Part shown: positions 17,102-62,220 of the stretch, piece after piece
Layout of the letters: each line of letters starts with the position of its first letter
How positions within the stretch are numbered: the stretch's first letter is position 1
IMG/VR virus record: IMGVR_UViG_3300027749_000096
Span: 1 to 64,000 of that record
From: a virus
DNA length: 64,000 nt
Reading direction: 5' to 3' (one strand)
Translations under genes and position numbers: made by a program
The notes under the pieces: model-generated
The model's database searches: none
What the model was told of the DNA's origin: nothing
Seen by the model: the letters and a program-made list of their open reading frames with translations, nothing else

Positions 17102-18046
17102 TTATAATTTTAAATTGTTTGTAAAATATGTTTTATAAATTTGATATTTTCGGTCTAAAGATATACAAGAATCTTTATATAAATAGTTTGCTATTTTTTT
17201 AGCATCTTCTCCATAATAAGAAACTCTGTAAAAATTTTTACCAGAAACTTGTGTTGGATACTTTTTATCAGTTTGAATTATTTTAGAACAAAAAAATATA
17301 AATTCAAATATTGTTTCAAGAGTTCCACATAACATTAAATGTTTCATTTTATCTTTAGTAAAATAAATACCCCCATCTCCATCTATACATCCTCTCCAAA
17401 AATCTTTGGATTGTTTTAATAAATCATGAGGAATTATAGAAACACTTTTATTATGTGTAAAACCTAAATCAACTAAACGATCTCTAATTTTTTTAGAATT
17501 AACTCTCATTCTTGAACAATCACCTTTACCTTTTTTAACATCTCTATTAGATTTTAGAAAAGCTTTAAATTTTTCTAAATGATCTATATCATTGTTATGT
17601 AAGGTTAGTTCAATAGAAGCTTCTTTATTTTGTTCTATGTGACCGTCTGTATATAACATCCCAATCCAATATAAAGCTTCACAAGTTAACTCATCAAAAA
17701 CATTATGATCTATTTCAGTTTCATACCTAATGTGAGCCTGGTTTGAAAGATTCCTATATTCTACATCTTTAGATTTAAGAAATTCTCTTATAGTTTTACG
17801 TGTTAAATTTAACTCTTTTTCTATAAAAATTTGAGACTTCCCCTCCTGATATAAAGATAAGACTTTTTCAAAACATTCTTTTCTTTTTTCTTCTTGTTCT
17901 AGATTATAATCTATACCAACATTTGAAAGAACTTTTTTAACACTTGGTTGTGAGGAAGATGTTAACTTACATATTTCAGTTAACATCTTTCCTTCTTTGT
18001 ACAACCTTATTATTTCTTCGGATTTTTCTAAACTTATTTTTTTCAT
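17102..18046 (-). CDS. LAGLIDADG homing endonuclease
   Basis: This 314-residue protein has two helix-turn-helix-like N-terminal repeats (EIIRLYKEGKMLTEICKLTSSSQPSVKKVL and VLSLYQEGKSQIFIEKELNLTRKTIREFL). Two LAGLIDADG helices follow: LYWIGMLYTDGHI (about 123-135, catalytic D) and FWRGCIDGDGGIY (about 222-234, catalytic D). Two motifs in one chain give a monomeric enzyme that makes a long-site double-strand break. It lies directly downstream of the capsid gene with a 59-bp gap and is not inside an open reading frame. It is therefore a free-standing homing endonuclease, likely targeting the capsid region of related phages. Confidence 0.88.
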   Translation of the reverse strand: MKKISLEKSEEIIRLYKEGKMLTEICKLTSSSQPSVKKVLSNVGIDYNLEQEEKRKECFEKVLSLYQEGKSQIFIEKELNLTRKTIREFLKSKDVEYRNLSNQAHIRYETEIDHNVFDELTCEALYWIGMLYTDGHIEQNKEASIELTLHNNDIDHLEKFKAFLKSNRDVKKGKGDCSRMRVNSKKIRDRLVDLGFTHNKSVSIIPHDLLKQSKDFWRGCIDGDGGIYFTKDKMKHLMLCGTLETIFEFIFFCSKIIQTDKKYPTQVSGKNFYRVSYYGEDAKKIANYLYKDSCISLDRKYQIYKTYFTNNLKL

Positions 18047-32885: not shown

Positions 32886-33506
32886 ACTATTTTAGCCTAA
32901 AAAAGTTGTCTCCAGCCTGTGGACATACCTGACTTTACTATTGATAATCAATTAGTTGTGTGTGAGGGTGATGATGGGTGGAAACACCTCAATCTATTCT
33001 ATTAACACACAGAATGTGCTGAAAAAAACAAAAAATTTGTGGATGAGATGGCTATAACTCTTTAGAGATGAATAAACTCTTACAAACTTGTGGGGCTTCT
33101 ATGTTATTTATACATTAGTATTATCAGTACTACGTATATATTCAAACACTCTGATAAGGTGTTAATAACAAGATGGTGCAGACTTAAAAATCAAGTAGTG
33201 CTTATATATAGGGATAACAGATACCTATTTATATAGCTCTTTAAGGCAGTGATGTCACAATTCTGTAATGTTGTACAAACCACCTCAACATTTAGTCTAT
33301 AGGTTTGTGGTAAACCTAACTAACAATATCTATTTATCTATAAGGATAAATTAGATGCTTCTGATGTTTAGATGTTAGACCGTCACTTCTTATATGGTTA
33401 TAAGGAGATACATTAGCAGTTTATTATTATTTATGACACATTTAACGGGGCTGAGACCACAGCCCAAAGTCTTAACTCAAATCCTTTGTCTGTAGGATAT
33501 ATACAG
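32886..33506 (+). ncRNA. Structured non-coding region A (620 bp)
   Basis: No convincing ORF lies here on either strand, yet simple hairpins are frequent. TAGGTTT/AAACCTA closes a 5-nt loop at 33300-33318; ATTTATC/GATAAAT occurs at 33332-33351; CTTATA/TATAAG at about 33389-33404; GGGCTG/CAGCCC at about 33447-33464; GTCTCCA/TGTGGAC at about 32899-32914. Such density in AT-rich phage DNA suggests a folded RNA, transcribed rightward with the early genes. The family is unknown. Confidence 0.55.
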
Positions 33507-43792: not shown

Positions 43793-44539
43793 ATGACACT
43801 ATCTACATATACTACTGAAAATATTGAATCTTTAAAAAAAACAGGTGTTTATAAAATATACCACAATTTTTTTCCAGATAAAATATATATAGGTAGTGCT
43901 GCATCTACAAATTTTAGAAATGATAATAAAGGATTTTTAGGAAGATGGAAATCACATCTTTCACAATTAAAACTAAATAAGCATCATTCAAAGTATTTAC
44001 AAAGAGTTGTAAATAAATATGGTATTGATAATCTTAAATTTGAAATTTTAGAAATATGTGACTTTTTAGAATGTTTAACTAAAGAACAATTTTATATTGA
44101 TTTATATAATCCTGTATATAACAGTTGCAAAATTGCAAAAAGCTGTTTAGGAATAAAACGTCATAATTTATATAAAAATGTACATCAATATAATATGTTT
44201 GGAGTTTATATTAAATCTTATGATAATATTACAAATGCAGAAATTGAAACAAAAATAGATAGAGCATCTATATCAAAAGCTGCAAAAGGTACTAGACCTA
44301 GTGCTGGAGGTTTTATGTGGAGTTTTGATATTACAAAACCTCCTATACCGTTAAGAGTAATTGAACAATATAATTTAAATAATGAACTTATTAATAGATA
44401 TACATCTTTAGAAGAAGTAAAAAAGACATTAAACATTAAAAGTAGTACTGCTATAAGAAATTGTTTTATTGGTAAACAAAAACAAGCATATGGTTTTAAA
44501 TGGATTGATGTTATAAACAATTGGACATTTAGTTCATGA
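43793..44539 (+). CDS. GIY-YIG homing endonuclease
   Basis: In this 248-residue protein the N-terminal catalytic domain shows KKTGVYKIYHNFFPDKIYIGSAAS (GVY...YIG, about residues 16-37), GFLGRWKSHLSQL with the catalytic Arg, and ILEICDFLECLTKEQFYIDLYNP. Two NUMOD-type DNA-binding repeats follow (VHQYNMFGVYIKSYDNITNAE and VIEQYNLNNELINRYTSLEEVKKTL). It is free-standing, 36 bp after the HNH protein. Both look like mobile passengers. Confidence 0.9.
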   Translation: MTLSTYTTENIESLKKTGVYKIYHNFFPDKIYIGSAASTNFRNDNKGFLGRWKSHLSQLKLNKHHSKYLQRVVNKYGIDNLKFEILEICDFLECLTKEQFYIDLYNPVYNSCKIAKSCLGIKRHNLYKNVHQYNMFGVYIKSYDNITNAEIETKIDRASISKAAKGTRPSAGGFMWSFDITKPPIPLRVIEQYNLNNELINRYTSLEEVKKTLNIKSSTAIRNCFIGKQKQAYGFKWIDVINNWTFSS

Positions 44540-57765: not shown

Positions 57766-58263
57766 ATGAATACAAAGAAATATGCCATCTCATTAGAAGG
57801 TAAGCTTATAGAAGAATTTAAAAGAAAATTCTTTGATAAATTAGGGTATGAACCTGTTGTCCATGCTGGTTCTAGATTGAAGACAGAAGATGGTAAAGAT
57901 GTAGCAACAATATCATTAGGTGAACTAAAAGATTGTTTTACTCCATTTCTACCTCTTCTTAGGGGAGTACCTGCAGAACTTGATAATAGATCAAGAAAGA
58001 AAGACTTAGTAGAACTAAGGGTGATATTTTCATTTATTGCTAGAAGTATGGGATATACTTTAGAAGATATTGGAGATGTGTTAGGTAAAAAAGATCACAC
58101 CACTGTTATACATTCTATAACATGTTTTAAAAACTGGGTAGCTGTTGATCCTATTTTTAGAGATAAATTTAATATAATCCTTAATTACATAGTAGTTATA
58201 CAAAACAAACAAAATGAGTCATCAACATTGGAACACACTGATCAAATGGAACATCAGTCCTAA
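57766..58263 (+). CDS. Orphan DnaA domain IV protein
   Basis: This 165-residue protein ends its conserved part with RVIFSFIARSMGYTLEDIGDVLGKKDHTTVIHSITCFKNW (85-124). This is the DnaA C-terminal DNA-binding domain, including the signature (IG..LG.+DHTTVIH) that reads DnaA boxes. The AAA+ domain of DnaA is absent; the first 75 residues are unrelated. It could recruit host DnaA or phage helicase to a phage origin, or block host initiation. It overlaps the next gene by 50 bp and leads the replication operon. Confidence 0.85.
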   Translation: MNTKKYAISLEGKLIEEFKRKFFDKLGYEPVVHAGSRLKTEDGKDVATISLGELKDCFTPFLPLLRGVPAELDNRSRKKDLVELRVIFSFIARSMGYTLEDIGDVLGKKDHTTVIHSITCFKNWVAVDPIFRDKFNIILNYIVVIQNKQNESSTLEHTDQMEHQS

Positions 58264-58790: not shown

Positions 58791-58979
58791 ATGACTAGAA
58801 AAGAAAAGATGATTCACAGTTTAATAATATCATGTTTGTTTAGTTTATTAAGTTGGTTTACAATAGATAGATTTATAATAAAAGTATCATTTTGGCAATA
58901 CTTTTTTATTGAATTTATTTTGATTTTATCACTTAAATTATTTAACTTTACAAAGCAAAGATTAAACCTAAATTTATAA
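58791..58979 (+). CDS. Small two-span membrane protein
   Basis: This 62-residue hydrophobic protein (MTRKEKMIHSLIISCLFSLLSW...) has two membrane segments (SLIISCLFSLLSWFTI and FWQYFFIEFILILSLKLFNF). Its stop overlaps the helicase start as TAATG. Its presence inside the replication operon is unusual; a membrane tether for replication is a possible but untested reading. Confidence 0.55.
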   Translation: MTRKEKMIHSLIISCLFSLLSWFTIDRFIIKVSFWQYFFIEFILILSLKLFNFTKQRLNLNL

Positions 58980-60907
58980 TGAATTTACTAAATACACCTA
59001 TTAAAGATAGACCTTTTGGTATAAGGAGTTATGTAGAAATTCTTGAAGAAGGTTTAAATTACATTGAGGATAGAAGACTAGGTAAGATTAAATCTTTAAC
59101 ATTACCGTGGGATGGATTAAATAATGCAGGTGTAGCTGGTTTAGAATGGGGATCAATGATAACTATAGGTGCTAGACCTGGTTGTTTATCTGGAGATACT
59201 GTTCTTGATATTTATAGACACTACAATAAAAAAAATCATAGAAATGGATCTAGAAAATACACATTAAAAGAATTATACTATAAATTTAACGGCTTACTTG
59301 TACCAAGAAATTCCAAAAATGATAAAAGAAATGGTAATTATTGGGATTTAACAGTGCCTTCAAAACTTTATAGTTATAATAAGAATGAACAGTATTTAGA
59401 TTTAAATAATATTGTTAATGTTATAGAATCAGGTATAAAAGAAACTTTTACTGTTATAACAGAATCAGGAAAACAATTAAGAGCAACAAAAGATCATAGA
59501 TTTTTAATATCTGAAAATGATGAATATCTTGAATTAGAAAATTTAAACATTGGGGATTATGTATATTGTAGAACTGACAAACATATAAATAAAGGAAGAA
59601 AACCAAGACCTTATAGATTTGAATATACTACAAAAATGCCATATTATCCATCAGCTAAAGAAAAAAAAGTTAAATGTAATAATATTGAATATACACATCA
59701 TAGAATTAAAAAGACTAGAGCTGTTTATGATGCTGCTTTAAACAATGTTACATTAGATGTATTTTTAGAAAATGTAAAAACTAATCCTAATCATAATTAT
59801 AAGTTTTCAGATCTTAATATGGACATTCATCATATAGATGAAAACCATCAAAATGATGTTCCTGAAAACTTAATTTTGCTTAGTAAAGAAGAACATGCTA
59901 GATTACATTCATCGGTTACTTATATAGATAGAATTAACAGAAAGAAAATTGTTAAAGAAAAAATCATATCAATTGTAAGTTTTGGAAAAGAAATGACTTA
60001 TGATATAGAAATGACCAGTCCTTATAATAATTTTGTTGCTAATGAATTTGTTGTTCATAATTCAGGTAAGACAATGTTTGTATCTCAAATACTAAGAGAA
60101 TCTAAAATGCTTAATCCAACACAAAATTTTAATATTTTAGAATTTCAATTTGAGATGGGAGCTAGACAAACTGCAGCTAGAGATTTTGCTTCCCAGGTTA
60201 GTTTAGATTATAATCAAGTACTTAGTACTCATAAACAATTAGATGAGTTTTCTGTAAAACTTATGAGACAATATATTGCAGACACTAAAGTGTTTCAAGG
60301 TTTTGGTAACTATAGAGTTCAGATTAATGACCCTCTTACAGTTACTAATATGGAACAAGCCATATATAAAACTTATGAAGGACTTGGTGGTAAGCCTCTT
60401 ATTGTATCTATAGATCATAGCTTCTTAGTAAAAAAAGATAGAGATGAGAAAGAAAAACTTAACACTTTATATAACACTGTAGAAATGTTAATGAAGGTGA
60501 AGAATAAACTACCAATAGTGGTATTTATGATTTCACAATTAAACAGAAGTATTGATGACCCATTAAGAAAAATGCCTGGTACAGTGGGTAACTACCCTAC
60601 TAGTGCAGATATATTTGGTGGTGATGCTTTACAACAGGGTTCTGATATGGTGTTAGTTCTTACAAGACCTTTTAAAGCTGATATAGAAATATATGGTAGA
60701 AAAGAGTATGTTTGCAAAACTGATGATATTTTTGGTCACATTCTTAAAGCTAGAAATAGTGCTGATGATACTAACTTATTGTTTCTTAAAGCAGAGTTTT
60801 CTAAACAAAGAATGATAGAAATTCCTGAACCTGTTTCTAATAACCCAACAGGAGCTCCACCAAAAAGAAGAACAGCTCAAAAATATAATAATTCACAAAC
60901 CCCATAA
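58979..60907 (+). CDS. dnaB: DnaB-type replicative helicase interrupted by an intein
   Basis: The precursor has 642 residues. Exteins are residues 1-68 and 362-642. N-extein ends TIGARPG and C-extein begins SGKTMFVSQIL, so splicing rebuilds the P-loop GARPGSGKT. C-extein carries LEFQFEMGARQTAARDFASQVS, Walker B VSIDHSF, QLNRS and GGDALQQGSD motifs of the DnaB/RecA-like helicase core. The mature length is about 349 residues, as expected for a single-domain phage DnaB-like helicase. It unwinds DNA at the fork with the primase encoded downstream. Confidence 0.92.
   Translation: MNLLNTPIKDRPFGIRSYVEILEEGLNYIEDRRLGKIKSLTLPWDGLNNAGVAGLEWGSMITIGARPGCLSGDTVLDIYRHYNKKNHRNGSRKYTLKELYYKFNGLLVPRNSKNDKRNGNYWDLTVPSKLYSYNKNEQYLDLNNIVNVIESGIKETFTVITESGKQLRATKDHRFLISENDEYLELENLNIGDYVYCRTDKHINKGRKPRPYRFEYTTKMPYYPSAKEKKVKCNNIEYTHHRIKKTRAVYDAALNNVTLDVFLENVKTNPNHNYKFSDLNMDIHHIDENHQNDVPENLILLSKEEHARLHSSVTYIDRINRKKIVKEKIISIVSFGKEMTYDIEMTSPYNNFVANEFVVHNSGKTMFVSQILRESKMLNPTQNFNILEFQFEMGARQTAARDFASQVSLDYNQVLSTHKQLDEFSVKLMRQYIADTKVFQGFGNYRVQINDPLTVTNMEQAIYKTYEGLGGKPLIVSIDHSFLVKKDRDEKEKLNTLYNTVEMLMKVKNKLPIVVFMISQLNRSIDDPLRKMPGTVGNYPTSADIFGGDALQQGSDMVLVLTRPFKADIEIYGRKEYVCKTDDIFGHILKARNSADDTNLLFLKAEFSKQRMIEIPEPVSNNPTGAPPKRRTAQKYNNSQTP
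59183..60061 (+). mobile_element. Intein with HNH homing endonuclease in dnaB P-loop
   Basis: In-frame insertion of 293 residues (69-361). It begins with C69 (CLSGDTVLDI, block A). Block B is ESGKQLRATKDHRFLI with the conserved T..H-like ATKDH. The HNH homing domain centres on DIHHIDENHQNDVPENLILLSKEEHARLH. Block F is MTYDIEMTSPYNNFVANEFVVHN, ending in His-Asn before the +1 Ser of the C-extein. All residues needed for class 1 splicing are present. Confidence 0.93.
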
Positions 60908-60931: not shown

Positions 60932-61519
60932 ATGTCAATCATGCACAGTATGTCTGAAGAAGACAAAACAAAGTACAAGTTCCAAAAGACAAAAGAAATG
61001 AGAGATTTTAACAAAGATCTCATTAATGATTTAGGAATTTCAATTTATGAGTTCAACATGAAAACACAGTTTTATGATGAACAAGGTAGACTGGTGGTAG
61101 GAATCTTTCCATCAGAGTTTAAAAAACCAAAAGGATTTTTCTTTGAGCTTATAGACTCAAACTTAAATCCAATAGATTCAGAAAGAAAAGTTTATAGAAT
61201 TCCTCCTACAGAAGGATTTGAGGATGAATATGAACTTACAGCCAAAGGTTCTTTTTTAGTTCCTATTGAAGAATTGAAGACAGTACACAGAAGTTCTGTT
61301 GCAATTAGTAAGTTGTCTGCTTTTACAGGTACAGAGAAGCCTGTATTTAAAGTGACAGAGAAAGCTCAAGAAATTCAAAAGTCAATTCCTAAAGCTCCTG
61401 CTCTTATGGAGGATGCTTTATATAGTGAAATGACTATTAGAGATTTTTATGCTATCAAAACAGGTAAACCAGTTAGTACAAGACAATGGTTGAATGAATT
61501 AGTAAGAAACACAAAATAA
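60932..61519 (+). CDS. Replication-module protein, unknown
   Basis: This 195-residue protein (MSIMHSMSEEDKTKYKFQKTKEMRDFNKDLINDLGISIYEFNMKTQFYDEQGRLVVGIFPSEFKKPKGFFFEL...) has a helical charged N-terminus and a beta-rich middle. It lies between helicase and the AAA ATPase with 24- and 11-bp spacers. No enzymatic motif. A role in DNA replication is inferred from the neighbours. Confidence 0.6.
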   Translation: MSIMHSMSEEDKTKYKFQKTKEMRDFNKDLINDLGISIYEFNMKTQFYDEQGRLVVGIFPSEFKKPKGFFFELIDSNLNPIDSERKVYRIPPTEGFEDEYELTAKGSFLVPIEELKTVHRSSVAISKLSAFTGTEKPVFKVTEKAQEIQKSIPKAPALMEDALYSEMTIRDFYAIKTGKPVSTRQWLNELVRNTK

Positions 61520-61530
61520 ACAAAACACAT

Positions 61531-62220
61531 ATGGCTGCAACAAGAGTGCTGATTCTAGCTGAATCAGGTGGTGGTAAATCCACTAGTATAGAAACTTTAG
61601 ACCCTAAAGAAACATTTATTATAAATGTAGCAAGTAAAGGATTACCATTTGCTAAATGGAAGTCAAAGTATAAAGAATGGAGTAAAGAAAACCCTACAGG
61701 TAATCTTTATCAAAATTCTAGTGCTCCTTCTATTATAGCTTGTATGGAGTATGTTAATTCAAAAAGACCAGAAATAAAAACTCTCATTATAGATGATTTA
61801 TTTTATATGTCAGCTTTTGAATTATTTGACAAAGCAAATGAAACAGGGTATGCTAAGTTTACTAGTATTGCAATTTCTTTAAAGAAGGTGGCAACACTTC
61901 CTCAAACATTTAGAGAGGATCTATCTGTATTTTATCTAACTCATCCAGAAGAGTCTACAGACATTGAAGGACGTAGAATCATTAAAACAAAAATGACAGG
62001 TAAAATGGTGGAGCAACAATTAAATTTTGAAGGACTTTTTGAAACTGTTCTTTATGCAAGACCTAGAAAGAGTAAGGAAACTAAAGAAATGGAATATGGT
62101 TTTGAAACAAAAACAGATGGTACAACTCCTACTAAAACTCCAAAAGGAATGTTTACAGAGAGCTTTATACCAAATGATTTATTGTATGTAAAATCTGCAA
62201 TCCATAAGTATGAAAATTAA
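61531..62220 (+). CDS. Phage AAA-type nucleotide-binding protein
   Basis: This 229-residue P-loop protein has Walker A LAESGGGKSTS (8-18) and Walker B KTLIIDDLFYM (around 85-95). A conserved FYLTHPEE segment and a C-terminal K.T.GKMV / LYARPRK pattern match the phage AAA_24-type (RecA-like) ATPase found beside helicase and SSB genes. It probably assists recombination or replication. Confidence 0.85.
   Translation: MAATRVLILAESGGGKSTSIETLDPKETFIINVASKGLPFAKWKSKYKEWSKENPTGNLYQNSSAPSIIACMEYVNSKRPEIKTLIIDDLFYMSAFELFDKANETGYAKFTSIAISLKKVATLPQTFREDLSVFYLTHPEESTDIEGRRIIKTKMTGKMVEQQLNFEGLFETVLYARPRKSKETKEMEYGFETKTDGTTPTKTPKGMFTESFIPNDLLYVKSAIHKYEN

Follow-up and report, generated by a model that had tools for sequence, protein, structure and literature searches.

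A class 1 intein, probably mobile and bearing an HNH endonuclease domain, in the P-loop of the replicative helicase of a crAss-like phage

The NpuDnaB and Ssp DnaB inteins of cyanobacteria sit at the H4 site of the helicase and not in the P-loop. The DnaB protein of M. smegmatis carries two inteins: DnaBi1 at site b, which is the P-loop, and DnaBi2 at site a, which is the H4 motif (PMC6195587, PMC7360933). DnaBi1, a mini-intein of class 3, lacks an endonuclease; it is inserted as GK/S (the slash marks the insertion point), and its +1 Ser is the Mg-binding Ser of the P-loop (PMC6195587). For a precursor that is inactive because of a split P-loop, PMC6195587 cites P. horikoshii RadA as a precedent. 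P-loop inteins of phages are known from the mycobacteriophage inteins TerL1-a and TerL1-b, whose host protein is the terminase, TerL1-a lying between Lys and Thr (PMC5050341). In crAss-like phages, inteins and introns are dense in some groups—Delta and Zeta—and inteins occur in core genes; the Delta/Zeta intein named in the accessible part of that report is the one in TerL, and a helicase intein is not named in that part (PMC7886860).

The window—the whole stretch of 64,000 nucleotides that was analyzed—belongs to a 72 kb phage record that may be incomplete. The open reading frame 58979..60907 (+) translates into a precursor of 642 residues, a DnaB-type helicase with an in-frame intein. The helicase part comprises the DnaB C-terminal ATPase domain only and is recognized by Pfam DnaB_C in the C-extein (1.4e-13, above the curated cut-off) and by phrog_19, DnaB-like helicase, over the precursor (2.2e-18). 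The N-extein (58979..59182, +, 68 residues as aligned to intein-free relatives) ends with GARPG, the first half of the Walker A motif, and the C-extein (60062..60904, +, 281 residues) begins with SGKT. Between them lies a class 1 intein with an HNH endonuclease domain (59183..60061, +) of 293 residues, precursor residues 69 to 361, which starts with Cys (nt 59183; N-terminal end CLSGDT) and ends with His-Asn (nt 60061; C-terminal end NFVANEFVVHN). The exteins WGSMITIGARPG and SGKTMFVSQ join to GARPGSGKT, a standard Walker A loop, so that removal of the intein restores, at the sequence level, the Walker A motif of an SF4 helicase. The residue Ser+1 of the C-extein is splicing nucleophile and P-loop residue at once. 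The joined exteins amount to 349 residues, the same length as the nearest intein-free relatives (L012–L015), which align over residues 1–349. A preliminary description had given these boundaries, the exact P-loop placement, the DnaB-type assignment and the product length of 349 residues; translation, domain matches and alignment bear out all four, the boundaries to the base. In our view this element is very probably a mobile intein of class 1 that carries an HNH homing endonuclease and has entered the Walker A loop of the replicative helicase of a crAss-like phage between Gly68 and Ser+1.

The crAss-like nature of the phage, likewise put forward earlier, agrees with portal, terminase and local gene order. 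Most portal and terminase matches are to crAss-like phages, among them Cellulophaga phi17:2 and phi4:1 as well as human-gut cr phages, at 22–27% identity; the best portal match is Leptolyngbya phage Lbo-JY46 (33% identity), unclassified below Caudoviricetes. Two genes follow the helicase (60932..62220, +), one for a protein of 195 residues of unknown function and one for a Sak4-like ATPase (61531–62220, +, phrog_2872, 1.1e-49); the same order of helicase, hypothetical protein and ATP-binding protein is found in the Crassvirales cr4_1 and cr10_1. The related portal and large terminase together with this replication gene order place the phage in the Crassvirales, at the order level only. Just upstream of the helicase, 57766–58263 (+) encodes a small protein matched by Bac_DnaA_C (4e-12), the C-terminal DNA-binding domain of DnaA. 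Further endonuclease genes are a phrog_4645 endonuclease (17102–18046, −, 3.1e-47) amid late structural genes and a group I intron-type homing endonuclease with NUMOD1 (43793–44539, +, TIGR01453, 1.4e-19), which has a weakly GIY-YIG-like N-terminus and around which Rfam detects no group I intron. A Hatchet ribozyme (RF02678) occupies 33058–33196 (+) over the full model length and scores 76.6 bits (gathering score 51); it lies in an ORF-poor stretch that has the leftward late genes on one side and the rightward early genes on the other and is absent from the four related phage records searched.

The splicing domain carries all residues of the class 1 mechanism. Pfam Intein_splicing (1.1e-12) and HNH_3 (1.4e-6 to 5.1e-6) both match the insert above their curated cut-offs. 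In an alignment of 47 inteins of phage P-loop ATPases—all 47 matched by Intein_splicing and 46 by HNH_3—the invariant columns are, in window numbering, C1, G84, H105, H216, H217, N229, H238, D274, V291, H292 and N293. All family-invariant catalytic residues are present, so that the window intein is apparently intact both for class 1 splicing and for HNH cleavage. The splicing residues are the N-terminal nucleophile C1 at the splice junction, the block B motif TxxH as T102-K-D-H105 (TKDH, 59486..59497, +; H105 invariant and T102 conserved in at least 90% of the 47 inteins), and D274 of block F, H292, N293 and Ser+1 at the C-terminal end, where blocks F and G (D274, NFVANEFVVHN) cover 59948..60061 (+). 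Between the first splicing strands the alignment places an insert of approximately 48 residues (59219..59362, +; with the stretches SRKYTLKELYYKFNGLL and TLKELYYKFNG), which is common to related P-loop inteins and partly of lower pLDDT in the structural model. This AlphaFold2 model of the intein has a mean pLDDT of 90, and superposition of its splicing domain gives Z 22.5 (1.4 Å rmsd, 139 residues) with the NpuDnaB intein and Z 22.2 with the Ssp DnaB intein, which identifies the predicted structure as a Hint fold. The two cyanobacterial inteins are also the best PDB sequence matches; the solved chains that match are approximately 140–158 residues long and lack the HNH domain.

The endonuclease region extends over approximately 59576..59941 (+), as judged by HNH matches to phrog_7545 and phrog_15471. 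Its HNH_3 core (59816–59902, +) contains or adjoins H216, H217, N229 and H238, and the H-N-H catalytic motif formed by H216/H217, N229 and H238 is invariant in the 47 inteins. The Pfam matches and the invariance of the splicing and HNH residues thus agree with the complete HNH domain that had been ascribed to the intein. The intein has a GC content of 24% compared with 31–33% for the exteins; GC and GC3 fit a foreign origin of the intein but are not taken as proof, because AT-richness extends over the entire window.

With the 349 residues of the joined exteins as query, 80 loci were retrieved from viral contigs. L001/L026 and L002 represent the window's own phage and were set apart; the remaining loci encode the helicase without the insert, and an uninterrupted P-loop can be read in 77 of them. 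Chance is therefore excluded as the source of the intein observation. The residue directly before GKT in these P-loops (L012–L090), equivalent to the +1 position, is Ser in 37 loci (GARPGSGKT-like) and Ala in 40; many loci are near-copies, and the distinct sequences number 26 with Ser and 23 with Ala. The nearest intein-free helicases are of equal length and 78–82% identical to the window exteins, and a tree built from 53 helicases puts the window sequence in a clade with 12 intein-free ones (support 100/100). Since the relatives are empty and the tree places the window among them, the 293 residues are an insertion that was gained or kept in one lineage only.

Other phages, too, carry related inteins at this site. 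A pattern search of viral contigs for the junction [LIV]VHN/SGKT yields approximately 100 open frames in phage P-loop proteins, most of which align to the window intein, and related inteins sit at the G/[ST]GKT register in dozens of further P-loop ATPases of phages. The closest comparison is offered by four IMG/VR loci (L153, L159, L199 and L208) that encode the orthologous crAss-like helicase with an HNH intein at the same site (GGRPA/C...HN/SGKT), with the same Hint and HNH layout and 44–47% identity over 293 residues. These inteins are 277 residues long as against 293 in the window, their exteins are approximately 40% identical to the window exteins, and they belong to a different phage sub-lineage; the portal of the L159 contig is 69% identical to the window portal. 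A tentative and less probable reading is that a single HNH intein lineage specialized on the phosphate-binding loop has spread among unrelated phage P-loop ATPases at G/[ST]GKT—RecA-like, DnaB-like, AAA and other helicases—and that Ala+1 in some crAss-like helicases is a natural resistance allele. A separate set of P-loop open reading frames (L138, L154, L156, L166, L170, L179 and similar) opens approximately 50 residues before a Hint-like C-terminus (VLVHN/SGKTY); these recur in many contigs and may be split inteins or else genes with an interruption further upstream.

Other searches returned more distant material. A scan of viral contigs for GARPGC..G gave 45 loci, of which the sole real one is the window's own phage, the others being chance. 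The whole precursor as query retrieved mostly DnaE inteins sharing the stretch EMTYDIEM from viral sequences; among named phages the matches were chiefly distant ThyX inteins from mycobacteriophages, genome contigs yielded two inteins, both distant, one in a ThyX-like protein and one in a DnaE protein, and plasmids yielded no related inteins. No second intein (PF14890) was found in this genome record, and no PF14890 intein in the five intein-free relatives searched.

Signs of transfer come from the pair L159 and L199 and not from the window copy, whose only other records are 99.9–100% identical to it. In this pair, dS is ~1.03 and dN 0.07 for the exteins as against dS 0.19 and dN 0.05 for the intein (Fisher p ~3e-15 on site counts); four-fold sites differ at 33 of 86 positions in the exteins and at 10 of 71 in the intein. 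Given the lower intein dS, the two helicases diverged before they came to share this intein, as expected of homing, and the sequences apparently record a recent transfer in this one pair. Beside the intein, the 120 bases upstream differ by 7%, too weak a signal to claim a co-conversion tract, and downstream no such tract is visible. By small numbers, dN/dS in this pair is 0.64 in the endonuclease region and 0.16 in the splicing region, so the nuclease of L159/L199 may be weakly constrained. This ratio speaks for an HNH domain that is dead or decaying in an intein merely inherited vertically, an explanation we hold to be improbable, as all family-invariant HNH residues are kept, the inteins of the relatives are of much more recent date than the exteins around them, and the window copy stands isolated among empty relatives.

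For a mobile class 1 intein, splicing would proceed after translation by an N–S acyl shift of Cys1 at Gly68, passing of the chain to Ser+1, and cyclization of Asn293 assisted by His292, and would ligate the exteins as GARPGSGKT to a helicase of 349 residues. With its phosphate-binding loop split by the insert, the precursor is expected to be inactive as an ATPase, since a P-loop broken up by 293 residues would in general not bind ATP, and that the helicase would be off until spliced is a sound inference from the sequence. Upon co-infection, the HNH domain would cut intein-less helicase genes, and repair from the intein-bearing copy would spread the intein. The preliminary description went further in proposing that splicing could gate replication; no sequence feature points to conditional splicing. 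Such a switch, with splicing held back until a redox, zinc or ssDNA signal times phage replication, could draw on the P-loop location, which makes splicing a likely prerequisite of ATPase activity, on the oxidation- and zinc-sensitive DnaBi1 of M. smegmatis (PMC6195587, PMC7360933), and on two cysteines of the window intein besides C1. However, C1 is the only invariant cysteine across the intein family, the nearest relatives do without any intein—which leaves a regulatory need unsupported—and a mobile element would account for the intact HNH domain and the patchy distribution, so we consider a switch very unlikely. A native helicase fold or an assembly chimera as the source of the 293 residues, the former having been named at the outset as what would overturn the intein claim, is refuted by the relatives without these residues, by two further contigs from two metagenomes with the same arrangement (100% and 99.9% identity over 6–8 kb), and by the homologous inserts that other phages carry at this position.

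Compared with DnaBi1, the window intein shares the location in the P-loop of a replicative helicase but is of class 1 with an HNH domain and is inserted at G/SGK, three residues upstream; with Cys1 and the G/SGKT site it falls outside the DnaB-b P-loop type, which is defined by GK/[ST] insertion and class 3 (PMC6195587). With TerL1-a and TerL1-b it shares the character of a phage P-loop intein. The rarity originally attached to it was overstated: crAss-like inteins are already reported (PMC7886860), and another crAss-like lineage carries an HNH intein at the same site. In the part of the literature that was searched, no paper naming an HNH intein at G/SGKT of a crAss-like helicase was found. 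Inteins of such type at such sites are already well known, and what is known about inteins is unchanged. What the finding contributes is an intein allele, clean and apparently mobile, in an order of phages whose inteins are known mainly from other genes. As judged by the residue at the junction, Ser+1 sites can host this intein, whereas Ala+1 sites—40 of the 77 loci—should not support splicing, and the abundant empty sites together with this natural Ser/Ala polymorphism are suited to a test of homing.
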